Source of the DNA: Hamadaea tsunoensis DSM 44101
Lineage (GTDB): Bacteria > Actinomycetota > Actinomycetes > Mycobacteriales > Micromonosporaceae
NCBI RefSeq assembly: GCF_000428945.1
Contig: NZ_AUAX01000001.1
Location: 124,001 to 188,000, forward strand
Length of the DNA stretch: 64,000 nt
Reading direction: 5' to 3'
The stretch's first letter is position 1. Every line of letters starts with the position of its first letter. Positions 36,822-44,978 of the stretch are shown in pieces. The position numbers and the translations under genes were made by a program. The notes beneath the pieces are model-generated. The model was not told the origin of the DNA, did not search any database, and saw nothing but the letters and a program-made list of their open reading frames with translations.

Positions 36822-37019
36822 TCATCGCGAGCGGCCGGCGGGCTGCGCCGAGACCTCGATCGCGAAGGCGAACACGCTGACCCCCGCCACGACGCCGAGG
36901 ACGAACGCGGCGGCGGCCAGAGCCACGATGTAGCGGCGCCGCCTGACCAGGGCCGATCGATGCCGGCCCGGCCCTGTGGGAGGCCGGGCCGGAGATTCGA
37001 TCACGAGCGGTCGGGTCAT
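36822..37019 (-). CDS. Module A: 65-residue single-pass membrane protein
   Basis: The short product starts at MTRPLVIESPARPP (ATG 37019, overlapping the upstream stop by 4 bp), has a basic stretch (RHRSALVRRRR) and one hydrophobic helix (YIVALAAAAFVLGVVAGVSVFAF). I know no family. The coupling to the sigma factor operon makes it the third gene of module A. The basic segment before the helix predicts a cytosolic N-terminus. Confidence 0.65.
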   Translation of the reverse strand: MTRPLVIESPARPPTGPGRHRSALVRRRRYIVALAAAAFVLGVVAGVSVFAFAIEVSAQPAGRSR

Positions 37020-38026
37020 CGACGCGCCGCTCGGTGGCGGCCCCCCGAGGACGTCGTCCGGGCCGGCTTGCCGCCCTTGCCCGGTACCGCCGGGCGGATA
37101 TGGGGTTCGCGCTGCGTGGGCACAGGCGGGTCGGGGATCAGCCGCGGCGGCCGGAACTCGGCGGCCGGCTCGGCCGGGACCACCTCGCCGTTCAGCACAC
37201 CGGCCGCGATCATCTCGCTGGTGATGCGCGGGATGATCACCGTGTCCCTCGTGTCCGGCGGCAGGAACTCCGGCTCGTGCGCCGGCGGCCGGTCCGGGTC
37301 GTCGACCGGTTCCGGCTCGGGTACGCGTACCGGCTCGGGGTCGGGTTCGGCGTCGGCCCGGCCGCTCGGCTCGAAGCCGTCGCGACCCGGATCCCAGGGG
37401 CGCCCCGGCTCGGTGCGTAAGCCGGGGCCCGCCATGCGCCCGGGACCCGGGTCGCCGTTCATGGGGTCGTGCCCGTTGACGTGGCCCCCGTCCGCGGCGC
37501 CGCCCCGCCCGGACACGCCGTTCAGGGGCGTTCCGTCCAGCGGCGCGCCGGGGCCGGCCGGCTGGTCGCCGGCCGGAAAAGGCGGCCAGGACGGCGGCCC
37601 CGAGACCGGGCCGGGCGGGGCCTCGAAGATCAGCCCGGACGACAGCTCGGTCTCGAACAGCCGGCCGACGCCGGGCGCGTCCCCGTCGACCGGGAAGAAG
37701 TCCCCGGGGAAGGGCCCGGCCGGGGCAGCTCCGGCCGGGAATCCCTCCGCCGGGGCCAGGGACGGCGACATGGATGGCGACCCGGGCGCCGTCCCTGTTC
37801 CGGGCTCGAACACGAGCCCGGCGAGCGGAACCGGCCCGTGGACGGGCCGCCCCGCTTCGCGTACCCGGGGAGCCTGGTCGGCCCACCGGCGGATCTCGGC
37901 GGCCTGGCGGCGCACGTCGCGGTGGCGTACGCGCACGACCATGGCGGTCGTCACCGCGGACACGCCGGCCGTGGCGGCGACGGCGAGGCAGGCGAAGCCG
38001 AGATCGACGTGATCGTTGAGGTTCAC
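37016..38026 (-). CDS. Module A: membrane-anchored Pro/Gly/Asp-rich protein, candidate sigma-factor partner
   Basis: The 336-residue product starts at GTG 38026, which overlaps the sigma stop (GTGA) and has GAGGAA upstream. One N-terminal membrane helix (LGFACLAVAATAGVSAVTTAMV) is followed by VRVRHRDVRRQAAEIRRWAD. That segment resembles VAHVRGRDVTELYAYVQKWA of the 86-residue protein in module B. The remaining 270 residues are disordered-looking, rich in Pro, Gly, Glu and Asp (PEPEPVDDPDRPP), and contain short motifs RLFETELSSGLIFEAPP and TVIIPRITSEMI. Position and topology suit a regulator of the sigma factor, but no anti-sigma fold is recognisable. Confidence 0.7.
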   Translation of the reverse strand: MNLNDHVDLGFACLAVAATAGVSAVTTAMVVRVRHRDVRRQAAEIRRWADQAPRVREAGRPVHGPVPLAGLVFEPGTGTAPGSPSMSPSLAPAEGFPAGAAPAGPFPGDFFPVDGDAPGVGRLFETELSSGLIFEAPPGPVSGPPSWPPFPAGDQPAGPGAPLDGTPLNGVSGRGGAADGGHVNGHDPMNGDPGPGRMAGPGLRTEPGRPWDPGRDGFEPSGRADAEPDPEPVRVPEPEPVDDPDRPPAHEPEFLPPDTRDTVIIPRITSEMIAAGVLNGEVVPAEPAAEFRPPRLIPDPPVPTQREPHIRPAVPGKGGKPARTTSSGGRHRAARR

Positions 38027-38700
38027 CGGTTCCTCATCTCTGGATGATGGCGGGGCGTGTACGCCCGGTCGAGCGTCAGCCGCCGGGCGAGGGCACGCCG
38101 GCCGCGCAGGTTGAGGGCCTTGACCGCGTCCTCGGAGATGCCCATGCGCACGGCCGCCTGCGGGCAGGTGAGGCCGTTGAAGTAGGTGAGGGCGATCGCC
38201 TGGCGCTGCGGCCCGGACAGGGCCTTGACCGCGCGCAGCAGCGAGTCGGCGTCCTGCCGCCGGACCGCCAGCTGCTCGACGTCCAGCGCCTGGTCGGGCC
38301 CGCTGATGTCGTTCGTGGCGTCGATGAGCACCTCGTACTGGAACCGGCCGGACCGGAAGTGGTCGATGGCACGGTTGCGGGCGATCGTCATCAGCCAGGC
38401 CAGCGGCGGCCCCACGCGGCGCTGGACGCGCCCGATGTTGCGCAGCGCCCGTTCCCACACGTCTCCGGCGAGGTCCTGGGCCACTTCGAGGTGGCCGCAG
38501 CGCTGCCGCAGGAAGCGCAGCACGTCGTCGTTGTACTGCGCGTACAACTGGCCGAACGCGTACGCGTCGCCCTGCTGCGCGCGCTCGACGAGCGCCCACT
38601 GCTCCCCGTGCGGGCTCCATTCCTCCATGGCCGGCCCCGCGCCGACGGTCCCTCCGGCATCCGTGCTCTCGGTGGCGGCATCCATCACGGCATTGGTCAC
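38023..38700 (-). CDS. Module A: ECF-type RNA polymerase sigma factor
   Basis: The 225-residue protein has sigma region 2 (AFGQLYAQYNDDVLRFLRQRCG, DVWERALRNIGRV, LAWLMTIARNRAIDHFR) and region 4 (LSGPQRQAIALTYFNGLTCP, then RMGISEDAVKALNLRGRRAL). The linker is of normal length. Start GTG 38700 has GGGGGAA upstream. It is the first gene of a three-gene operon with two membrane proteins and diverges from an XRE regulator. The divergent region holds GCATGCA boxes shared with module B. ECF factors direct transcription of small regulons in response to signals; the signal here is unknown. Confidence 0.9.
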   Translation of the reverse strand: MTNAVMDAATESTDAGGTVGAGPAMEEWSPHGEQWALVERAQQGDAYAFGQLYAQYNDDVLRFLRQRCGHLEVAQDLAGDVWERALRNIGRVQRRVGPPLAWLMTIARNRAIDHFRSGRFQYEVLIDATNDISGPDQALDVEQLAVRRQDADSLLRAVKALSGPQRQAIALTYFNGLTCPQAAVRMGISEDAVKALNLRGRRALARRLTLDRAYTPRHHPEMRNR

Positions 38701-38741
38701 GGCAACGTTCCCCCGTTGCCAGCAGACATTATTTCACGCAC

Positions 38742-38778
38742 GCATGCACGCTAGTGGCATGCATGCAAGTCGTAAATA
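38742..38778. promoter_or_regulatory. Module A: paired GCATGCA boxes, 19 bp apart
   Basis: GCATGCAC at 38742-38749 and GCATGCAA at 38761-38768 are 19 bp apart start to start. The second lies in CATGCATGCAAGTCGTAAAT, a sequence shared in part with 39533 and 42476. On the minus strand the segment between the boxes reads TAGCG at the place where module B has TATAGT, so the boxes appear to bracket the sigma-gene promoter. Confidence 0.65.
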
Positions 38779-38803
38779 CCTCTATCGGGTGACGAGCGTG
38801 CAC

Positions 38804-38834
38804 TTGCGTACACGCAATTTCCTGCACATATGCA
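38804..38834. promoter_or_regulatory. Module A: TTGC-rich palindromes upstream of the XRE gene
   Basis: TTGCGTACACGCAA (38804-38817) and TGCACATATGCA (38823-38834) are two adjacent palindromes with TTGC/GCAA or TGCA arms. They lie 40-85 bp upstream of the XRE start. Module B has CTTGCATTCGTGCAAG in the matching place. Confidence 0.55.
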
Positions 38835-38874
38835 AGAACACTCGTGCGGACGATGCCCCTACAGGCGGTAGTGG

Positions 38875-38880
38875 ATAGGA
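38875..38880 (+). promoter_or_regulatory. Candidate -10 box for a leaderless XRE transcript (module A)
   Basis: TAGGAT fits the actinobacterial -10 pattern TANNNT and ends 8 bp before GTG 38889. Transcription would then begin at or next to the start codon, giving a leaderless mRNA, which agrees with the lack of a ribosome site. Confidence 0.45.
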
Positions 38881-38888
38881 TCTTGTAC

Positions 38889-39365
38889 GTGGCAACGAGG
38901 AAACGCCGGGATCCGCAGACCCCCTTCGGCTGGTATCTGCGCGCCCTCATGGAACGACACGGCTTCGAGTCCGACAGCGATCTCGAGGCCGCCTCCGGCG
39001 TATCCGCGTCGCTGATCTCTCGTTATCAGTCCGGCGAAGTCGTCCCGACGGCGCAGAACCTCCGGCGGCTCGCGCCCCACCTCGGCGCCTCCATGGGACA
39101 GCTGATGGTCGAGGCCGGCCTGGCCACCCCCGAGGAACTCGGCATGGTCGCGCGCGCGTCGGCCGCCGCGACGCCCCTCGATCCGAGCCTCGCCGAGGCC
39201 CAGCGGATCCTGGCCGATCCCGACCGGCCGGCTGCCGCCAAGGAGTACCTGCGCGACACGCTGAAGGGCGCTGTGGCGTACTGGCGGCAGCAGACGGGCA
39301 TCCGGCAGGCGTCGCACGAGCCGACCGCCGCCGAGCGGGCCGCGGGGCGCCGCGTACGCAGCTGA
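38889..39365 (+). CDS. Module A: XRE-family helix-turn-helix regulator
   Basis: The 158-residue protein has an N-terminal Cro/CI-type domain: GWYLRALMERHGFESDSDLE, then ASGVSASLISRYQSGEVVPT. A short helical C-terminal part follows (EAQRILADPDRPAAAKEYLR). It is about 60% identical by eye to the module B regulator over the DNA-binding half. I start at GTG 38889 because its next residues (ATRKRRDP) align with the start of the module B protein and a -10 box lies just upstream; an earlier in-frame start at 38844 gives 15 more residues. It is divergent from the sigma gene and probably binds the shared boxes between them. Confidence 0.85.
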   Translation: MATRKRRDPQTPFGWYLRALMERHGFESDSDLEAASGVSASLISRYQSGEVVPTAQNLRRLAPHLGASMGQLMVEAGLATPEELGMVARASAAATPLDPSLAEAQRILADPDRPAAAKEYLRDTLKGAVAYWRQQTGIRQASHEPTAAERAAGRRVRS

Positions 39366-39724
39366 GGGCTCGGCGTACACTTCACTCTCCGTAGTTGATT
39401 AACCAGCGGAGTGTCACCCAAATGGGGTCGTTCGAGCGTCTGCTCCGACTCACCCACTCGTCGGCGCCAGCGTCGCCCTCCCGGGTCGCAGATGACCCAG
39501 CGTGACGAAATGCTCCTGATCTGATGATGATCCATGCATGCACGTCACATAGCGGTTTGCACTGTGCGACTTGCACGAATACTCCGTATGGCCATCGATG
39601 GATGGCCGAACGTTCTATGTCCCTCAGCCATTGATCTGACGGATTTTGATCGCTCAGTCGCGTGGCGATGCGTGCACCGCCCCCATATAGGTGGCGCAGC
39701 GCCGCGCCCGCGGAAGGGGCTTTC
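39366..39724. other. 359 bp intergenic region with a GCATGCA-type box
   Basis: No gene is evident. It contains CATGCATGCACGTCACATA at 39533-39551, which differs by one base from the site at 42476 in module B, and TTGCAC words at about 39557 and 39571. A TATAGG sequence near 39688 could be a -10 box. This looks like a long regulated leader or promoter for the membrane protein at 39725. Confidence 0.6.
39533..39551. promoter_or_regulatory. Shared box upstream of module A membrane-protein gene
   Basis: CATGCATGCACGTCACATA is 18/19 identical to the sequence at 42476-42494. The similarity continues one or two bases on both sides (CCATG...TAG). It lies about 175-190 bp upstream of the start at 39725. 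Confidence 0.65.
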
Positions 39725-40225
39725 ATGATCTATGACGTCGACGAAGTAAGAGCCGGGGCGATACCCGCGGTGCCCGACCAGGGCGCCGGCGAGACGCGCC
39801 GCACCGACCTGATGATGCACATCGCGTACGCCTCGGTCTCCGCGATCATCGTCAGCCTCCTGTGGATTCTCAGCGGATCCACCTCCGCACTCATCAAGGC
39901 CTGGAGCGCGGTCATCGGGCTGTCGCTGACGGCCGCGATCTGTGCCGCCCGCGCGATGGTGGAGACGGCGCGTATCCGGCGCCGGCTGGCCGCCCAGGAG
40001 GCGATGATTTCATCAATGATGCAAACCGTTGCGGCACAGGCGATTCAGACCGCCGCTGCCACCGACAGCAAACGCCAACCCGTCGACCATCATTCTCGTC
40101 GGCGATCGGGACGACGGCGAAGCCGGCGAACCGCCGGCGACGCGGGTCAGATCATTTCCGACGAGTTCCAAATCTTCCTACGCGGCCGCGAGTCCCGTTT
40201 CGACGACGGACCCGACCCGCTCTGA
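39725..40225 (+). CDS. Module A: two-helix membrane protein with C-terminal IFLxGRES motif
   Basis: The 166-residue protein starts at MIYDVDEVRAG (ATG 39725, GGAAGGGG upstream). Two hydrophobic helices (ASVSAIIVSLLWILS and AWSAVIGLSLTAAICAARAM) make a hairpin. A charged coiled-coil-like helix follows (ETARIRRRLAAQEAMISSMM), then an Arg-rich stretch, and the tail IISDEFQIFLRGRESRFDD. The tail and the second helix region (IKAWSAV) recur in the module B protein at 43208 (IFLQGRES, TKAWGIV). I know no named family. Both ends face the cytosol, so the tail could contact the XRE protein or the sigma factor. Confidence 0.75.
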   Translation: MIYDVDEVRAGAIPAVPDQGAGETRRTDLMMHIAYASVSAIIVSLLWILSGSTSALIKAWSAVIGLSLTAAICAARAMVETARIRRRLAAQEAMISSMMQTVAAQAIQTAAATDSKRQPVDHHSRRRSGRRRSRRTAGDAGQIISDEFQIFLRGRESRFDDGPDPL

Positions 40226-40413
40226 GAGCCACCGTTCCAGGCTCCACAGTTTCGGCGAACATCGCCGGTACACGACCGGCGTCAGACGGCCACCGAGACA
40301 AGGCGCGGCCTCGCCCGGGCCCGCCCCAAAGTCTTCCCGACGCCGCGCGGAGGGTGTCCCCGCGACGGCGTCGGGCCGCCGTTTCCCTTACGGCCGCACG
40401 TGACCCGGCCGGG

Positions 40414-40635
40414 TCAGAAGGCCATCGGCCCTTCGCGGGCCGCCAGTTCCTCGATCTCCGCGCGCAGGTAGCGCCGCTGGCCGCCGAGCGTACGCGTCGA
40501 GCGGAACTTGCCCTGTTCGGCCCAGCGGACCACGGTCGACGGATCGACCTTGAACAAAAACGCGACCTCGCCGGTACGCATCAGTGGATGCAGGGCCCGG
40601 CGAGCCGGTATGCCGCTGTCTTCTTCAATGATCAT
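40414..40635 (-). CDS. Module B: BldC-like MerR-type DNA-binding protein
   Basis: The ~73-residue protein is a single winged-helix domain: MRTGEVAFLFKVDPSTVVRW, then AEQGKFRSTRTLGGQRRYLR. It matches BldC of Streptomyces (TPAEVATMFRVDPKTVTRW...TLGGHRRYREAE) over its whole length. BldC proteins bind DNA head-to-tail and delay development genes. I prefer ATG 40635, which has GGGAGGA at good spacing; ATG 40644 would put the ribosome site against the start. It is the last gene of the module B operon and overlaps the 3' end of the gene before it. Confidence 0.85.
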   Translation of the reverse strand: MIIEEDSGIPARRALHPLMRTGEVAFLFKVDPSTVVRWAEQGKFRSTRTLGGQRRYLRAEIEELAAREGPMAF

Positions 40636-40948
40636 CTTCTTCATTCCTCCCGAGAACCTCTGGAACTAGCGGCTCCGGAGCCGGGATGAGCTCCGGGCAG
40701 ATGCTGGTCTCCCGCACGGTCTGCATGTACACCGGCACGGATGTATCGAAGATCGCCACCGCCGCCCGCGCGGTCACGCCACCCTGGCGGGGAGCGGCGG
40801 CGAGCCGGACCTGGCGGGCCCGCTGCGCCTCACCGATGTCGATGGGCGCGTCCGCGGTGGCGGCTTTGCGGTGGACTCGGCGCGCGGTCGCGTCCTCCAC
40901 CGGCCCGCGTTCCCGCGGCACCTGCGTACGGCGGCGCGAACGGCTCAC
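40625..40948 (-). CDS. Module B: 107-residue basic protein of unknown function
   Basis: The frame starts at GTG 40948, overlapping the stop of the 86-residue gene by 3-4 bp, and ends inside the start region of the BldC-like gene. The product is Arg-rich in the first half (VSRSRRRTQVPRERG) and has a more hydrophobic second half (VAIFDTSVPVYMQTVRETS). No motif or membrane helix is clear. The evidence for coding is mainly its tight packing in the operon. Confidence 0.5.
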   Translation of the reverse strand: MSRSRRRTQVPRERGPVEDATARRVHRKAATADAPIDIGEAQRARQVRLAAAPRQGGVTARAAVAIFDTSVPVYMQTVRETSICPELIPAPEPLVPEVLGRNEEDDH

Positions 40949-41205
40949 CGCTCCGCCGCCCGGTGGCGCGCGGGGACCCGGACCGTCGGCCCGAACAGCC
41001 GCAGGTGCCGGTCCGGCATACCGACCAGGGCGGCCGCGGCCATGTCGTCGTCGAGGCTCGCCCACTTCTGCACGTACGCGTACAGCTCCGTGACGTCCCG
41101 GCCGCGTACATGGGCGACCATGGCGGTGGCGACGGCGGCGACGATCGCCGTGGCCCCCATGGCCAGCAGCAGCTCGGCGAAAGTGATCGAGGTCGCTGTG
41201 TCCAT
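40945..41205 (-). CDS. Module B: 86-residue single-pass membrane protein
   Basis: One hydrophobic helix (FAELLLAMGATAIVAAVATAMV) near the N-terminus is followed by AHVRGRDVTELYAYVQKWAS. That is similar in sequence and position to the segment after the helix in the 336-residue module A protein. This one lacks the long Pro/Gly/Asp tail and ends soon after (HLRLFGPTVRVP). It is 27 bp after the sigma stop. The shared segment suggests a conserved contact, perhaps with the sigma factor. Confidence 0.7.
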   Translation of the reverse strand: MDTATSITFAELLLAMGATAIVAAVATAMVAHVRGRDVTELYAYVQKWASLDDDMAAAALVGMPDRHLRLFGPTVRVPARHRAAER

Positions 41206-41232
41206 ACCTCACTCCTTCGTGGAATCGGGCGG

Positions 41233-42162
41233 TCAGGCGCTCGCCCCGGCGGCCAGCAACCCGGCCAGGCGTACGCGGCCCTGCCAGGTGAGGGCCTGAA
41301 CGATGGCCGGGGTGTTGCCCATGACCGCCGCCGAGTCGATCTCGTCGAGACCGCAGAAGTAGGTGAGCGCGATCGCCTCCTGCTGGGCCGGCGACAGCCG
41401 GCGCACCGCCGCGAGGAGGGCGGCCGACTGCGCGTGGTCGTCGTCGAACGCCAGCGCCTCGACCGCCTGCACGGCCGCGAGGTCGATGAGCCCGAGACGG
41501 TAGCGGCGGGTCCGGAAGTACTGGCCGGCCCGCGCCCGCGCCAGCCGCAGCAGCCAGCTCAGCGGCGTGTCGTTGTTGGCGTGCAGCCCGCCGATGCTGC
41601 GCAGCGCGCGCTCCCACACCTCGCGCGTCAGCTTCTGGGCGAGCGTCTCGTCCCCGCACCAGAGCCACACATAGCGGTAGACGTCCACATTGAACCGGTC
41701 GTAGAACTCCCCGACCGCCCGGGTGTCGCCGTGCTGCATCCGCTCCACCAGGCGCCAGGCCTGGCAGCGGCAGACCGGCGGCGGTTCCTCCCCGGCCTGC
41801 GCCGCCACGACCGGTGGCACGCCCGCGGCCCTCCGCGGCCGCGGGTGCCCGCCGATGAGGCGGTAGGAACCCGTCGTGCATCGTGCCCACTCAGTCACAT
41901 CGAACGCCTTTCTTCCCGTTACCGGTGTTGCCGTTGCGGGGACTGTCCCGAGATTTGCCGGATCGCCACGTCCCCCGACCGGCTCTCCCGTCACCGCGGC
42001 GCGCAGCAGGATCAGCGCGGCCCGCCCGGCGTACAGGGTGAGCGCCAGGCCGGCGAACATCCCGGCCGCTGCCGGCGGATTCAGCAGGGTCGTGCCCACC
42101 GCACCGCAGCAGAGCGATATGGTCCACGCGAGAGCCGGCAGGGATCGCCGGACCGCGATCAC
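41233..42162 (-). CDS. Module B: ECF-like sigma factor with in-frame N-terminal membrane segments
   Basis: The 309-residue frame has two parts. Residues 1-75 contain two hydrophobic segments (LAWTISLCCGAVGTTLL and GMFAGLALTLYAGRAALILL). From about residue 140 it is a sigma protein homologous to that of module A: VGEFYDRFNVDVYRYVWLWC, REVWERALRSIGG, LSWLLRLARARAGQYFR, LSPAQQEAIALTYFCGL. GTG 41898, preceded by AAGAAAGG, would give a 221-residue soluble form, almost the length of the module A factor (225). So it may be a membrane-tethered sigma factor, a membrane protein and sigma factor from two starts, or a long misreading. It starts 15 bp after the small HTH gene. Confidence 0.8.
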   Translation of the reverse strand: MIAVRRSLPALAWTISLCCGAVGTTLLNPPAAAGMFAGLALTLYAGRAALILLRAAVTGEPVGGRGDPANLGTVPATATPVTGRKAFDVTEWARCTTGSYRLIGGHPRPRRAAGVPPVVAAQAGEEPPPVCRCQAWRLVERMQHGDTRAVGEFYDRFNVDVYRYVWLWCGDETLAQKLTREVWERALRSIGGLHANNDTPLSWLLRLARARAGQYFRTRRYRLGLIDLAAVQAVEALAFDDDHAQSAALLAAVRRLSPAQQEAIALTYFCGLDEIDSAAVMGNTPAIVQALTWQGRVRLAGLLAAGASA

Positions 42163-42177
42163 GTCGGCGGGCCGCGA

Positions 42178-42459
42178 TCACCGCGACCGGCCGGCCGCGA
42201 CCGTGAACAGCCGGTCGAAGCGCGTCCGGTCGGCCGGCAGCTGGCCCAGCCGTGGTTCGGTACTCATGGCGTACAGCGCGCTCGCGACGAACTGTCCACC
42301 CGGGATGCACACGCCCCGGCGGATACGATTGAAGCTGCTCTCGGCGATTCCGAGGAACCTGGCCTTCTCGGCATCGGTCCGCAGCCCGAGCATCGCGAAA
42401 ATCTCCTCGAAAGCTTGTGGGTTATACGCCAGGCGTGGCGACTTGTTGATTTCATACAC
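42178..42459 (-). CDS. Module B: small phage-repressor-like HTH protein
   Basis: The ~93-residue product reads YEINKSPRLAYNPQAFEEIF, then LRTDAEKARFLGIAESSFNR and IRRGVCIPGGQFVASALYAM. This looks like a compact helix-turn-helix of the type seen in small phage or plasmid repressors. GTG 42459 is chosen because a TATAGT box (42466-42471) lies six bases upstream, implying a leaderless transcript; the frame is open to 42486. It is the first gene of the five-gene module B minus-strand operon. Module A has no counterpart. Confidence 0.65.
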   Translation of the reverse strand: MYEINKSPRLAYNPQAFEEIFAMLGLRTDAEKARFLGIAESSFNRIRRGVCIPGGQFVASALYAMSTEPRLGQLPADRTRFDRLFTVAAGRSR

Positions 42460-42494
42460 GCATGCACTATAGAACCATGCATGCACGTCGCATA
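42459..42494. promoter_or_regulatory. Module B: paired GCATGCA boxes around a -10 element
   Basis: GCATGCAC occurs at 42460-42467 and 42479-42486, 19 bp apart, the same spacing as in module A. On the minus strand TATAGT (42466-42471) lies between them. The longer box CATGCATGCACGTCGCATA (42476-42494) repeats the one at 39533 with one change. A protein bound to both boxes would cover the promoter. Confidence 0.7.
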
Positions 42495-42540
42495 GTCACT
42501 CGGATGGGTGACAAACTCCTGAATATGTCGATGCGTTTCT

Positions 42541-42556
42541 CTTGCATTCGTGCAAG
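42541..42556. promoter_or_regulatory. Module B: 16 bp palindrome upstream of the XRE gene
   Basis: CTTGCATTCGTGCAAG has perfect 6 bp arms and lies 56-71 bp upstream of ATG 42612. It corresponds to the TTGC palindromes in front of the module A XRE gene. Confidence 0.6.
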
Positions 42557-42611
42557 CTCAGAGCGCATGGGGGCGGTCGGCGACCACTCGGGGACGCCGA
42601 CCGCCGACGCC

Positions 42612-43073
42612 ATGGCGGACCGGCGGGGGCACCCGCGAACCGGCTTCGGGTGGTATCTTCGCGCGCTCATGGAACGCCAGGGCTACCTGTCGGACGGCGA
42701 GCTCGAGACCGACTCCGGCGTGTCCGCGTCCCTCATCGCCCGCTACCGGTCCGGTGAGGTCACCCCGACCGCGCAGAACCTGCGGCGACTGGCGCCCTGG
42801 CTCGGCGTACGCCTGGGCGATCTGCTGGTCGAGTCGGGACTGGCCACTCCGGAGGAACTCGGCATGGTCACCGTCGACGAGGCCGGCCCGGATGTCGACC
42901 CGGCCATCTCCGATGCGCAGCGCCACCTGGCCGATCCGCGGTTGCCGGACAGCGCCAAGGACTCTCTGCGTACGACACTGCAGGGGGCGATGGTCTACTG
43001 GCATCAGCAGCTCGACCGGACGCAACCGCGGCGCAGACCATCTCCGCGCCCCGCGGGCATCGCCCGAACGTAG
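42612..43073 (+). CDS. Module B: XRE-family helix-turn-helix regulator
   Basis: The 153-residue protein is a close paralogue of the regulator at 38889. GWYLRALMERQGYLSDGELE and SGVSASLIARYRSGEVTPTA match almost residue for residue, as does LATPEELGMV after the DNA-binding domain. The tails also align (AISDAQRHLADPRLPDSAKD). The start ATG 42612 (MADRRGHPR) is chosen by alignment with module A; an upstream in-frame ATG at 42567 adds 15 residues. It is divergent from the small HTH gene and sigma operon and probably recognises the shared boxes. Confidence 0.85.
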   Translation: MADRRGHPRTGFGWYLRALMERQGYLSDGELETDSGVSASLIARYRSGEVTPTAQNLRRLAPWLGVRLGDLLVESGLATPEELGMVTVDEAGPDVDPAISDAQRHLADPRLPDSAKDSLRTTLQGAMVYWHQQLDRTQPRRRPSPRPAGIART

Positions 43074-43095
43074 TTTTCGGTCTGCCCGAACGTAG
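43062..43095. promoter_or_regulatory. 12 bp direct repeats, 22 bp apart, before the module B membrane gene
   Basis: GCCCGAACGTAG occurs at 43062-43073, overlapping the XRE stop, and at 43084-43095. The 22 bp period places both on the same DNA face. It may be the operator for the membrane-protein gene at 43208. BldC-type proteins bind direct repeats, so the BldC-like neighbour is a candidate; this is inference. Confidence 0.5.
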
Positions 43096-43207
43096 GCTGG
43101 AACCCAGCGCCCGGGTCCGTTGTGATGATCTATGTCATTGTGACTGATTGATCCCCGTGGCAGGGCGAATCGGCGCGCCGCTGAACGTGGGCGAGGGGAA
43201 GAATTTC

Positions 43208-43660
43208 ATGGGGCAGGCAGCTCCCGAACGACTCTTCCGCGCCCGAGCACTTGCGGCGGACCCGCGTCCGCCCAAGGCGTCCCGGCGCGAGCCCGAAACG
43301 CTCGTACGCGTCGCCATCTGCGTCGTCTCGGCGGCGCTCGTCAGTCTGGGCTGGATCCTCGCGAGCGACATGGATCCGGCGACGAAGGCCTGGGGCATAG
43401 TCCTGTTCCTGTCGTTCGCCGGCACCACGACCGTCGTCGTCGGATACACCCGGGTCGAGGTCGCCAAGATGCGGGCCGACCTGGTCGACCTCGAGAAGCG
43501 GCTGCTGAGCGCGCTCGACACGGCCGGGCGCCCCGAGGTCGAGGACGTGGACAGCAACCTACCGCCGCAGCTCACACCCGATCCCGTGATCTCACACGAG
43601 TTGCGGATCTTCTTACAGGGCCGCGAGTCGGCCTATCGTGAAGACGAGGATGAGGCCTGA
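43208..43660 (+). CDS. Module B: two-helix membrane protein with C-terminal IFLxGRES motif
   Basis: The 150-residue protein starts at ATG 43208 (GAGGGGAAG upstream). It has a basic N-terminal region, a helical hairpin (AICVVSAALVSLGWILAS and AWGIVLFLSFAGTTTVVVGY), a charged helix (RVEVAKMRADLVDLEKRLLS) and an acidic linker. The tail PVISHELRIFLQGRESAYRE matches IISDEFQIFLRGRESRFDD of the module A protein at 8 of the 9 positions from I to S. No known family. It follows the XRE gene just as in module A. Confidence 0.75.
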   Translation: MGQAAPERLFRARALAADPRPPKASRREPETLVRVAICVVSAALVSLGWILASDMDPATKAWGIVLFLSFAGTTTVVVGYTRVEVAKMRADLVDLEKRLLSALDTAGRPEVEDVDSNLPPQLTPDPVISHELRIFLQGRESAYREDEDEA

Positions 43661-44270: not shown

Positions 44271-44693
44271 TCAGTCGCCGGAGGTCTGCACCTGTACACC
44301 CAGGTGCGCCGCGATGGCCCCGACCACGCCCTCAAGCCGGTCCAGGCGCCCGTCCATGCTGTCGAAACGGGCATCCATCCGATCCAGGCGCCCATCCATG
44401 CTGTCAAGGCGCCCATCCACGCTGTCAAGGCGCCCATCCACGCGGTCGAGACGGCCATCTATGCTGTCGAGGCGCCCATCCACGCGGTCGAGACGGCCAT
44501 CTATGCCGTTGAAACGAGCTGCGACCTCGGTGCGGAACTCCGCCATCTCATTGCGGAAAGCACGTTGATCCTCCGACAGGAGACCGATCGCACCCGTGAC
44601 GTGGTCCGCCCGGTCCCACAGCTTCATGATGCCCTCCGTAGCCCAGTTCGCATGCGATTCGAGCGTCGCCAGCCGATGCGCCACCGTAGCCAA
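44271..44693 (-). CDS. Heptad-repeat coiled-coil protein
   Basis: The 140-residue protein has an N-terminal helix (HRLATLESHANWATEGIMKL). Residues ~60-120 then consist of seven-residue units such as DGRLDRV, DGRLDSI and DGRLDSM repeated about nine times, and the end is hydrophobic (VVGAIAAHLGVQVQ). Such D-G-R-L-D-x-V/M repeats form parallel trimeric or tetrameric coiled coils as in phage tail-fibre and apolipoprotein-like proteins. There is no signal peptide. The DNA has matching 21 bp direct repeats, so repeat number may vary. Partner unknown. Confidence 0.75.
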   Translation of the reverse strand: MATVAHRLATLESHANWATEGIMKLWDRADHVTGAIGLLSEDQRAFRNEMAEFRTEVAARFNGIDGRLDRVDGRLDSIDGRLDRVDGRLDSVDGRLDSMDGRLDRMDARFDSMDGRLDRLEGVVGAIAAHLGVQVQTSGD

Positions 44694-44906
44694 TGTAACC
44701 CGCTCCTCCCCGGAATCGACGCCTCAGCGTACGCCGGACGGGCGTGGATCGGAACCTCGGGAGCCGGTGCGAATTTCCTTGATTCCCTTGCGTACCAACG
44801 GTTTCAGCAACCGCATTGCCGTCAGACACATCAATATTTATCGATATATTGGCGCCTGGAACGGCACGCCGGTGAGGTTGTGTGGAGAAAGGGAAAAGAA
44901 GAAGGG

Positions 44907-44978
44907 TGGGCGCGGCAGGTTTCGAACCTGCGACCCTCCGCTTGTAAGGCGGATGCTCTCCCACTGAGCTACGCGCCC
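44907..44978 (-). tRNA. tRNA-Val (anticodon TAC)
   Basis: Read on the minus strand, the acceptor arms GGGCGCG and CGCGCCC pair, followed by the discriminator A. The D arm (GCTCAGTGGGAGAGC), anticodon stem TCCGC/GCGGA with loop CTTACAA, and T arm GCAGGTTCGAAACCTGC are all intact. Loop positions 34-36 are TAC, reading valine GTA codons. No CCA is encoded, as usual in actinobacteria. No integrase or attachment duplication is seen beside it. Confidence 0.95.

Follow-up and report, generated by a model that had tools for sequence, protein, structure and literature searches.

The immunity regions of temperate actinophages place an annotated repressor gene divergently from a gene for a Cro-type helix-turn-helix (HTH) protein, as in Rhodococcus phage REQ3 (gp04 and gp06) and the Mycobacterium phages Bernal13 and Mendokysei. 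In Bernal13 the counterpart is annotated as Cro and stands beside Xis, and in both Bernal13 and Mendokysei the Cro-type gene is followed by Xis. Here we describe a locus in the actinobacterium Hamadaea tsunoensis DSM 44101 that resembles these regions in part. It lies in a stretch of 64,000 nucleotides (G000:C1:124001-188000, contig NZ_AUAX01000001.1; hereafter the window) of a 9.48 Mb genome in 68 contigs, and it consists of two modules, A and B, each with genes for an XRE-type regulator, an extracytoplasmic function (ECF) sigma factor and membrane proteins. The locus is probably a duplicated, domesticated temperate-phage lysogeny switch that represses operons with ECF sigma factors. This is the best reading of the computed results, namely the gene families (PHROG 3949 and 3642 for the HTH proteins) and their co-occurrence, the sequence and placement of a composite operator-like site, a parallel in a prophage of genome G020, purifying selection, and a changed chromosomal position.

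In module B the gene order is that of the phage regions, with the Cro-like gene hthB divergent from the repressor-type gene xreB. REQ3 gp06 and Mendokysei gp34 share PHROG 3642 with hthB, and REQ3 gp04 is related to xreB; the likeness to Bernal13 and Mendokysei is one of gene order and of the Cro side. Unlike the phage regions, the Hamadaea locus has no recognised integrase or lytic genes, includes a predicted operon with an ECF sigma factor and membrane proteins, carries its Xis/BldC-like gene last, is duplicated, and is found in each of the four Hamadaea genomes searched. The sigma and membrane genes take the place that early genes have in the phages. Its sigma factors share the ECF family with the BldN-RsbN pair and have BldN as their best model, yet they score below its cut-off and the true BldN lies elsewhere in G000. 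Paralogous XRE regulators common to host and phage, and controlling host genes, have been described for the Caulobacter/phiCbK cluster (PMC10688885); it belongs to a different phylum, and the abstract of that account mentions neither a sigma factor nor a repressor/Cro pair.

The features of the locus are as follows. Open reading frames (ORFs) were called with a home-made gene caller, and hydrophobic helices were assigned by eye rather than with a topology program.

memA: 37016..38026, minus strand; N-terminal hydrophobic helix, basic segment and long Pro/Gly/Asp-rich tail; its start overlaps the sigA stop.
sigA: 38023..38700, minus strand; BldN-related ECF sigma factor (Pfam region 2, 5.2e-15; region 4, 1.7e-9).
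Composite operator-like site A: 38739..38767; CACGCATGCA-n9-CATGCATGCA, with minus-strand TANNNT at spacer offset 4.
Second conserved inverted repeat CCTGCACAnnTGCAAG: 38821..38836, an intergenic footprint before xreA.
xreA: 38889..39365, plus strand; phage-repressor-type XRE protein of 158 residues, predicted start.
Operator-like sites upstream of tailA: 39532..39575; CATGCATGCA and TTGCA...ACTTGCA.
tailA: 39725..40225, plus strand; two hydrophobic helices, a charged stretch and C-terminal IFLRGRES.
bldC: 40414..40644, minus strand; BldC/excisionase-like MerR-type HTH protein, last gene of the module B minus-strand set.
p107: 40625..40948, minus strand; 107 residues with a 25-residue core, AVAIFDTSVPVYMQTVRETSICPEL.
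memB: 40945..41205, minus strand; N-terminal hydrophobic helix and short basic tail.
sigB: 41233..41898, minus strand, predicted start; diverged ECF sigma factor (Pfam region 2, 2e-5; region 4, 0.0031, below cut-off).
Small hydrophobic ORF: 41899..42162, minus strand; in frame with sigB in the window, in a separate frame in the congeners.
hthB: 42178..42459, minus strand; Cro-like HTH protein, 93 residues from GTG 42459; the longest ORF reaches 42486.
Composite operator-like site B: 42457..42485; minus-strand TATAGT spanning spacer and half-site.
xreB: 42612..43073, plus strand; phage-repressor-type XRE protein, predicted start.
tailB: 43208..43660, plus strand, predicted start; two hydrophobic helices, a long helix and C-terminal IFLQGRES.
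tRNA-Val (tac): 44905..44978, minus strand; synteny with G002 and G003 resumes here.

The xre, tail and hthB genes probably start downstream of the longest-ORF starts.

The strongest link between the two modules is operator-like DNA that they share, which the preliminary description of this stretch, made from the letters and their ORFs, did not contain. Conserved blocks were taken from an alignment of the intergenic DNA of four genomes, those of the window and of three congeners (G001, G002 and G003; module B of G001 is split by contig breaks). The composite CACGCATGCA-n9-CATGCATGCA is present exactly at eight places, two per genome, in the sigA/xreA and hthB/xreB intergenic regions. Allowing up to three mismatches added only one further place, in G003, besides three overlapping readings of these sites in reverse, and the pattern read backwards as a control gave two matches in G000 and none in the other three genomes. 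Since the pattern was derived from the sites themselves their exactness is partly a matter of construction, and its absence elsewhere is the informative part. A wider regulon read through the composite site was considered and dropped, no further exact copy having been found in the genomes scanned. With at most one mismatch, CATGCATGCA matches the window ten times (both strands, overlaps counted) against a shuffle mean of 1.8, and none of 100 shuffles reached ten; all ten matches fall at three intergenic spots, the third of which precedes tailA. Taken by itself, the 10-mer is not a rare sequence, with seven occurrences in G000 against five for the backward control, and four of the seven are single sites elsewhere.

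All eight composite sites carry minus-strand TANNNT at spacer offset 4, in four different spacers and as three hexamers, with the final T inside the half-site. Such a −10-like element would lie between the putative operator halves. From the element of module B a leaderless start of hthB is predicted at GTG 42459, and the resulting 93-residue length is also the gene caller's choice in the three congeners. XreA and XreB hardly differ in the region of the recognition helix, which suggests that each may read both sites. The 29-bp composite site with its embedded −10-like element is a directly testable prediction. A perfect inverted repeat, CTTGCATTCGTGCAAG (42541-42556), also stands before xreB and is not kept in the congeners.

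That the two modules are paralogous had been proposed in the preliminary description, and every part named there is present. XreA and XreB are 54% identical, sigA and sigB 41% over 187 columns (E 3e-33), and the two-helix proteins tailA and tailB 29% (E 6e-14), well above chance in each protein pair. The endings IFLRGRES and IFLQGRES both occur in the window as described, the tails of module A in the congeners ending in YLQGRES or YLQGRDS, and memA and memB share the expected helix followed by an R-x-RDV segment. The small HTH gene hthB belongs to module B only and has no counterpart in module A. Other points of that description needed amendment. Tandem adjacency holds in the window, but in G001, G002 and G003 the modules are separated by about 6.7-6.8 kb holding four ORFs of similar size, so that adjacency is particular to the window; in G003, where the families were tested, these genes are of debranching-enzyme, SCP2, M20-peptidase and LuxR/MalT type. 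The 309-residue sigma ORF taken from the ORF list does contain sigB (41233-41898), but its N-terminal extension is a separate small hydrophobic ORF in the congeners. The 336-residue memA exists in the window, but is about twice as long there as in the congeners (150-151 residues) and has a Pro/Gly/Asp-rich middle.

The proposal of a conserved, self-contained regulatory unit was borne out. Sigma, XRE and IFLxGRES genes are neighbours in the same internal order in four of four Hamadaea genomes, both modules are present in each with identical internal order, and the composite site is exact at the two modules only. The genome samples overlap, and profile searches scored at most 10-31 candidates per genome, for which reason distant relatives may be missed. 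At E ≤ 0.001 the tail profile matched four of 200 family genomes, all of the window's genus, and not the other 196; at E ≤ 1e-6 it matched one of 345 class genomes, the window's own, and none of the other 344. A search with tailB alone matched five of 101 relatives, and the fifth match (G080, E 5.2e-4) has an internal stop. The XRE pair profile gave matches at E < 1e-70 only in the same four of 101 genomes, with some match at E ≤ 0.001 in 37. A pattern scan of a named genome collection, in which 62 stretches matched a pattern, returned four loci, all from Hamadaea.

The ten genes tested are under purifying selection: all 30 pairwise Nei-Gojobori ratios of nonsynonymous to synonymous substitution (dN/dS), from three congener pairs, lie between 0.02 and 0.34 (p107 and the small hydrophobic ORF were left out), and those of sigA and sigB between 0.04 and 0.10. 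The p107 core is identical in G001 and G002 amid otherwise variable sequence; the G003 ORF as called begins within the core, of which the last 14 residues agree and are preceded by a single V-to-L change. Pfam has no match for p107.

The chromosomal position of the locus in the window's genome differs from that in G002 and G003, the two congeners covered by this comparison. In both, orthologues of the window's flank genes sit together around the same tRNA-Val with the modules absent; the G003 modules are about 5.4 Mb away by coordinate, and those of G002 are on another contig. tailB ends 1.2 kb from the tRNA-Val gene, and tRNA genes are the kind of place where phages integrate. The tRNA-Val (44905-44978) forms one edge of the lost synteny, and the G002/G003 region there holds other genes. 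As a proven attachment site it was rejected, for no direct repeat of useful length was found in the window (longest match 12 bp, inverted). No tRNA gene was found in the stretches taken around the congeners' modules.

The HTH proteins connect the locus to phages by family. The best PHROG family of xreA and xreB is 3949, 'transcriptional repressor' (7.6e-12 and 7.6e-10), which is also the best family of the Darolandstone immunity repressor (3.9e-39) and the second of REQ3 gp04 (2.5e-15, after PHROG 5301); by hhalign, the XRE profile matches REQ3 gp04 at 2.5e-10. The sole PHROG match of hthB is 3642 (1.9e-8), the best family of REQ3 gp06 (2.7e-26) and Mendokysei gp34 (1e-30), and hthB aligns with Mendokysei gp34 at 4.8e-9 by hhalign. 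Both phage genes are divergent from an annotated repressor gene (gp04 in REQ3), and module B likewise has a divergent Cro-type gene, which module A lacks. Against 50,697 phage records at E ≤ 1, xreB matched 19 (best REQ3, 3e-4) and hthB 17 (best Mendokysei, 4e-4). An AlphaFold2 model of XreA (mean predicted local distance difference test score, pLDDT, 78; predicted TM-score, pTM, 0.50) had seven matches at E ≤ 0.001 in a viral structure library, two of which carry the name of a phage repressor (Spartacus, 5e-5; Eklok, 9e-4), which agrees with phage kinship but is no proof of it. Against solved structures by sequence, xre had one weak bridging-factor match (E 0.0083), and hthB one 'CAP REPEAT' match (E 8.5e-6) with no single stretch passing. 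In Raleighvirus, the gene for a protein with two hydrophobic helices follows the repressor gene, the position of tailA and tailB. A relation of the tail to Darolandstone gp30 was rejected, as hhalign gave no support.

The prophage parallel comes from G020, another genus of the Micromonosporaceae, where a BldN-like sigma gene (sigma profile A8, E 1.6e-35; PHROG 1740, 1.1e-24) stands one ORF away from a small pair of divergent HTH genes. Like the Hamadaea locus, this region of contig G020:C44 (L124, L150 and L151) sets a BldN-family ECF sigma gene close to a small divergent repressor-type pair, and the sigma gene overlaps a 60-residue hydrophobic ORF. Unlike it, the contig also has matches to terminase, portal, tape-measure, integrase and annealing-protein families, both HTH proteins fall best in PHROG 4583 ('transcriptional repressor'), and the small membrane ORF is not detectably homologous; a relation of memA and memB to it was rejected for want of hhalign support. 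The prophage ORFs were scored low by the gene caller, and their identities therefore rest on family matches. In 250 family genomes the next matches of this sigma factor have about 44-51% identity, among the matches listed. The sigma region lies at L124 8192-8866 on the minus strand, at about 184 kb of G020:C44. Actinophages may thus carry development-type sigma factors, comparable to the phage-encoded sigma factors studied in Bacillota (PMC9429907).

Several results weigh against a phage origin. Single phage matches are weak: E < 0.01 was reached only by Mendokysei for hthB (two records) and by REQ3/Raleigh for xreB (four records), with identities of 26-41% over all hits listed. In a plasmid collection, xreB matches best to an ordinary helix-turn-helix regulator of Nonomuraea (E 1e-4, coverage 83%). 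The viral structure search with XreA does not discriminate, its best matches having TM-scores near 0.4, and in the PDB one match passes 0.001, the rest of those listed being mostly general HTH proteins. A phage-specific reading of xre is weakened by the plasmid match and the low TM-scores. When the repressor regions of seven phages or prophages were compared with the operator, the likeness mostly fell short of significance (51, 99, 64, 17, 64, 148 and 22 of 500 shuffles reached the score), and operator homology with phages is unsupported in most of the seven. Four viral-contig scans, by a pattern method limited to fairly close relatives, confirmed no relative of hthB, xre, tail or sigma, and none of the phage membrane proteins tested showed homology to tail, memA or memB. 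The 'Xis' of module B, bldC, matches PHROG 66 excisionase (4.1e-8) and the excise model (30.2 bits, cut-off 28.8), but equally well is a BldC-type protein (NF033787, 74.5 bits, narrowly below the cut-off of 77), and it is located last rather than beside Cro. The sigma match to PHROG 1740 is no sign of phage origin, because chromosomal BldN also matches (5e-26; sigB only at 0.0016), and the G020 HTH pair belongs to a different PHROG family from the Hamadaea proteins. No direct-repeat attachment site was found at the tRNA-Val, and neither integrase nor structural genes were recognised next to the modules (the window flanks were mostly judged from translations by eye), on which account they are not classed as a prophage.

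Homologues of hthB were also found in three of 200 family genomes beyond Hamadaea, all in genus g30 (G165, G182 and G229). That of G182 has an Xis-like gene and a divergently oriented XRE gene as neighbours, with a putative integrase by eye. The homologues were rejected as the same system, no sigma gene having been noticed by eye among the ORFs called in the 20 kb around each.

In the favoured reading of a domesticated lysogeny switch, XreB as repressor and the Cro-like HthB would face each other across the operator as in actinophages, and module A would be a paralogue of module B that has repressor, operator, sigma gene and membrane genes and lacks Cro. Both Xre proteins would bind the composite site, with its halves on either side of the leftward promoter's −10, and when bound would shut off sigA-memA in module A and hthB-sigB-memB-p107-bldC in module B. 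Once repression is lifted, HthB and the sigma factors would be made, HthB opposing Xre and the sigma factors directing RNA polymerase to a regulon. MemA and MemB, encoded right after the sigma genes, probably tether or restrain the sigma factors. The tail genes follow the repressor genes, tailA with operator-like sites of its own, and their products are probably membrane partners of the repressed state. The sequence supports the first of these steps, repression of the sigma operons by Xre. We infer the later ones, along with the phage origin, the protein that binds the site, cross-regulation between A and B, the operon structure and the direction of control.

The main competing view is that of a native chromosomal signalling unit, in which the membrane proteins are sensors or anti-sigma factors, the XRE proteins are auxiliary, and the phage likeness reflects a shared HTH fold. 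It has the genus-wide conservation of the locus in its favour, as well as the ordinary plasmid regulator matched by xreB and the overlaps of memA with the sigA stop and, in the congeners, of memB with sigB, which recall sigma/anti-sigma pairs (in the window memB starts 27 bases after sigB). The sigma factors too are related to chromosomal BldN, their best NCBIfam model (TIGR02952) giving 103.6 bits for sigA and 84.5 for sigB, both below the cut-off of 206.45. The sigA/sigB profile finds a match at E ≤ 1e-15 in 57 of 61 relatives, usually with one near 1e-45. In G000 that match is a separate gene (L123) with a DUF5667 neighbour, and the two are taken as the true BldN-RsbN pair, RsbN being the anti-sigma factor of BldN. 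In a sigma tree sigA and sigB stand apart from the BldN rows (96/98) with a very long row, L126, although long branches meet in this tree and one prophage sigma row entered it twice; sigB has diverged in region 4 (Pfam 0.0031, below cut-off).

The membrane proteins speak against a native unit. The true BldN has DUF5667 beside it, whereas neither DUF5667 nor an anti-sigma domain was found by Pfam or NCBIfam at E ≤ 1 for memB or for a 534-residue frame ending with the whole of memA. The link to a membrane sensor, as previously suggested, is thus unproven: Pfam does not match memA, memB or tailA, the tailB matches are below cut-off, and NCBIfam has none above cut-off. The structure model of tailB is of low confidence (mean pLDDT 65.5, pTM 0.29). 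The divergent XRE/PHROG 3642 pair, moreover, mirrors phage gene order, and a prophage region also has a BldN-like sigma gene by an HTH pair. On this balance we consider a native signalling unit unlikely. Other sigma neighbourhoods (L125, L126, L128 and L129) contain no modules, and no DUF397 match was found among the module proteins scanned, a WhiJ-type unit being an XRE protein with a neighbouring DUF397 protein.

Less probable still is a superinfection-immunity or defence device, in which the repressors would silence incoming related phages with the same operator, the tail proteins would exclude these phages at the membrane and the sigma operon would be an alarm output. That phage repressors confer homoimmunity is established, and the Raleighvirus two-helix gene occupies the position of tailA and tailB, but no homology of the tail to the Raleighvirus protein could be detected, and the strong constraint on sigA and sigB (dN/dS 0.04-0.10) shows that they are not passengers. 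A decaying prophage or integrative-element remnant without function, as phage-type genes beside a tRNA gene and without recognised integrase or virion genes might suggest, is highly improbable, being largely refuted by purifying selection in ten of ten genes tested and by a composite site that is exact, and a gene order that is kept, in four genomes.

Within the lysogeny-switch reading, we offer as a tentative idea, on the doubtful side, that two cross-wired CI/Cro-type copies sharing one operator form a heritable bistable switch that decides when BldN-like sigma factors, and hence a developmental or dormancy programme, are activated. Phage switches are the textbook example of a bistable circuit, and hosts are known to make use of phage regulators. 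If true, lysogeny-type decisions would be linked to actinobacterial development. A phage-development link is made plausible by a study of another subject than the Hamadaea locus, which reports no significant plaque shrinking in Streptomyces venezuelae without bldN (PMC10117723).

The preliminary description knew of no described system of this composition, a view that stands in part. The XRE core with its divergent small HTH gene is like the immunity regions of temperate actinophages, and a prophage region likewise has a BldN-like sigma gene next to a small repressor pair; it is the duplicated, host-kept combination with ECF sigma factors that is unusual. No conserved, duplicated repressor/Cro unit beside BldN-type sigma genes was found among the literature matches listed, in which subscription journals are thinly covered.

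Two further proteins may be mentioned. A tail-like hairpin protein of 86-88 residues without the GRES end occurs in the three congeners, away from any XRE match (L030 6058-6318, L031 5871-6134 and L032 4259-4525), where it adjoins universal-stress-type genes as judged by eye. In the window, a coiled-coil protein with repeated units (44271-44693, minus strand; DUF7310 match, 6.7e-11) is encoded between module B and the tRNA-Val.

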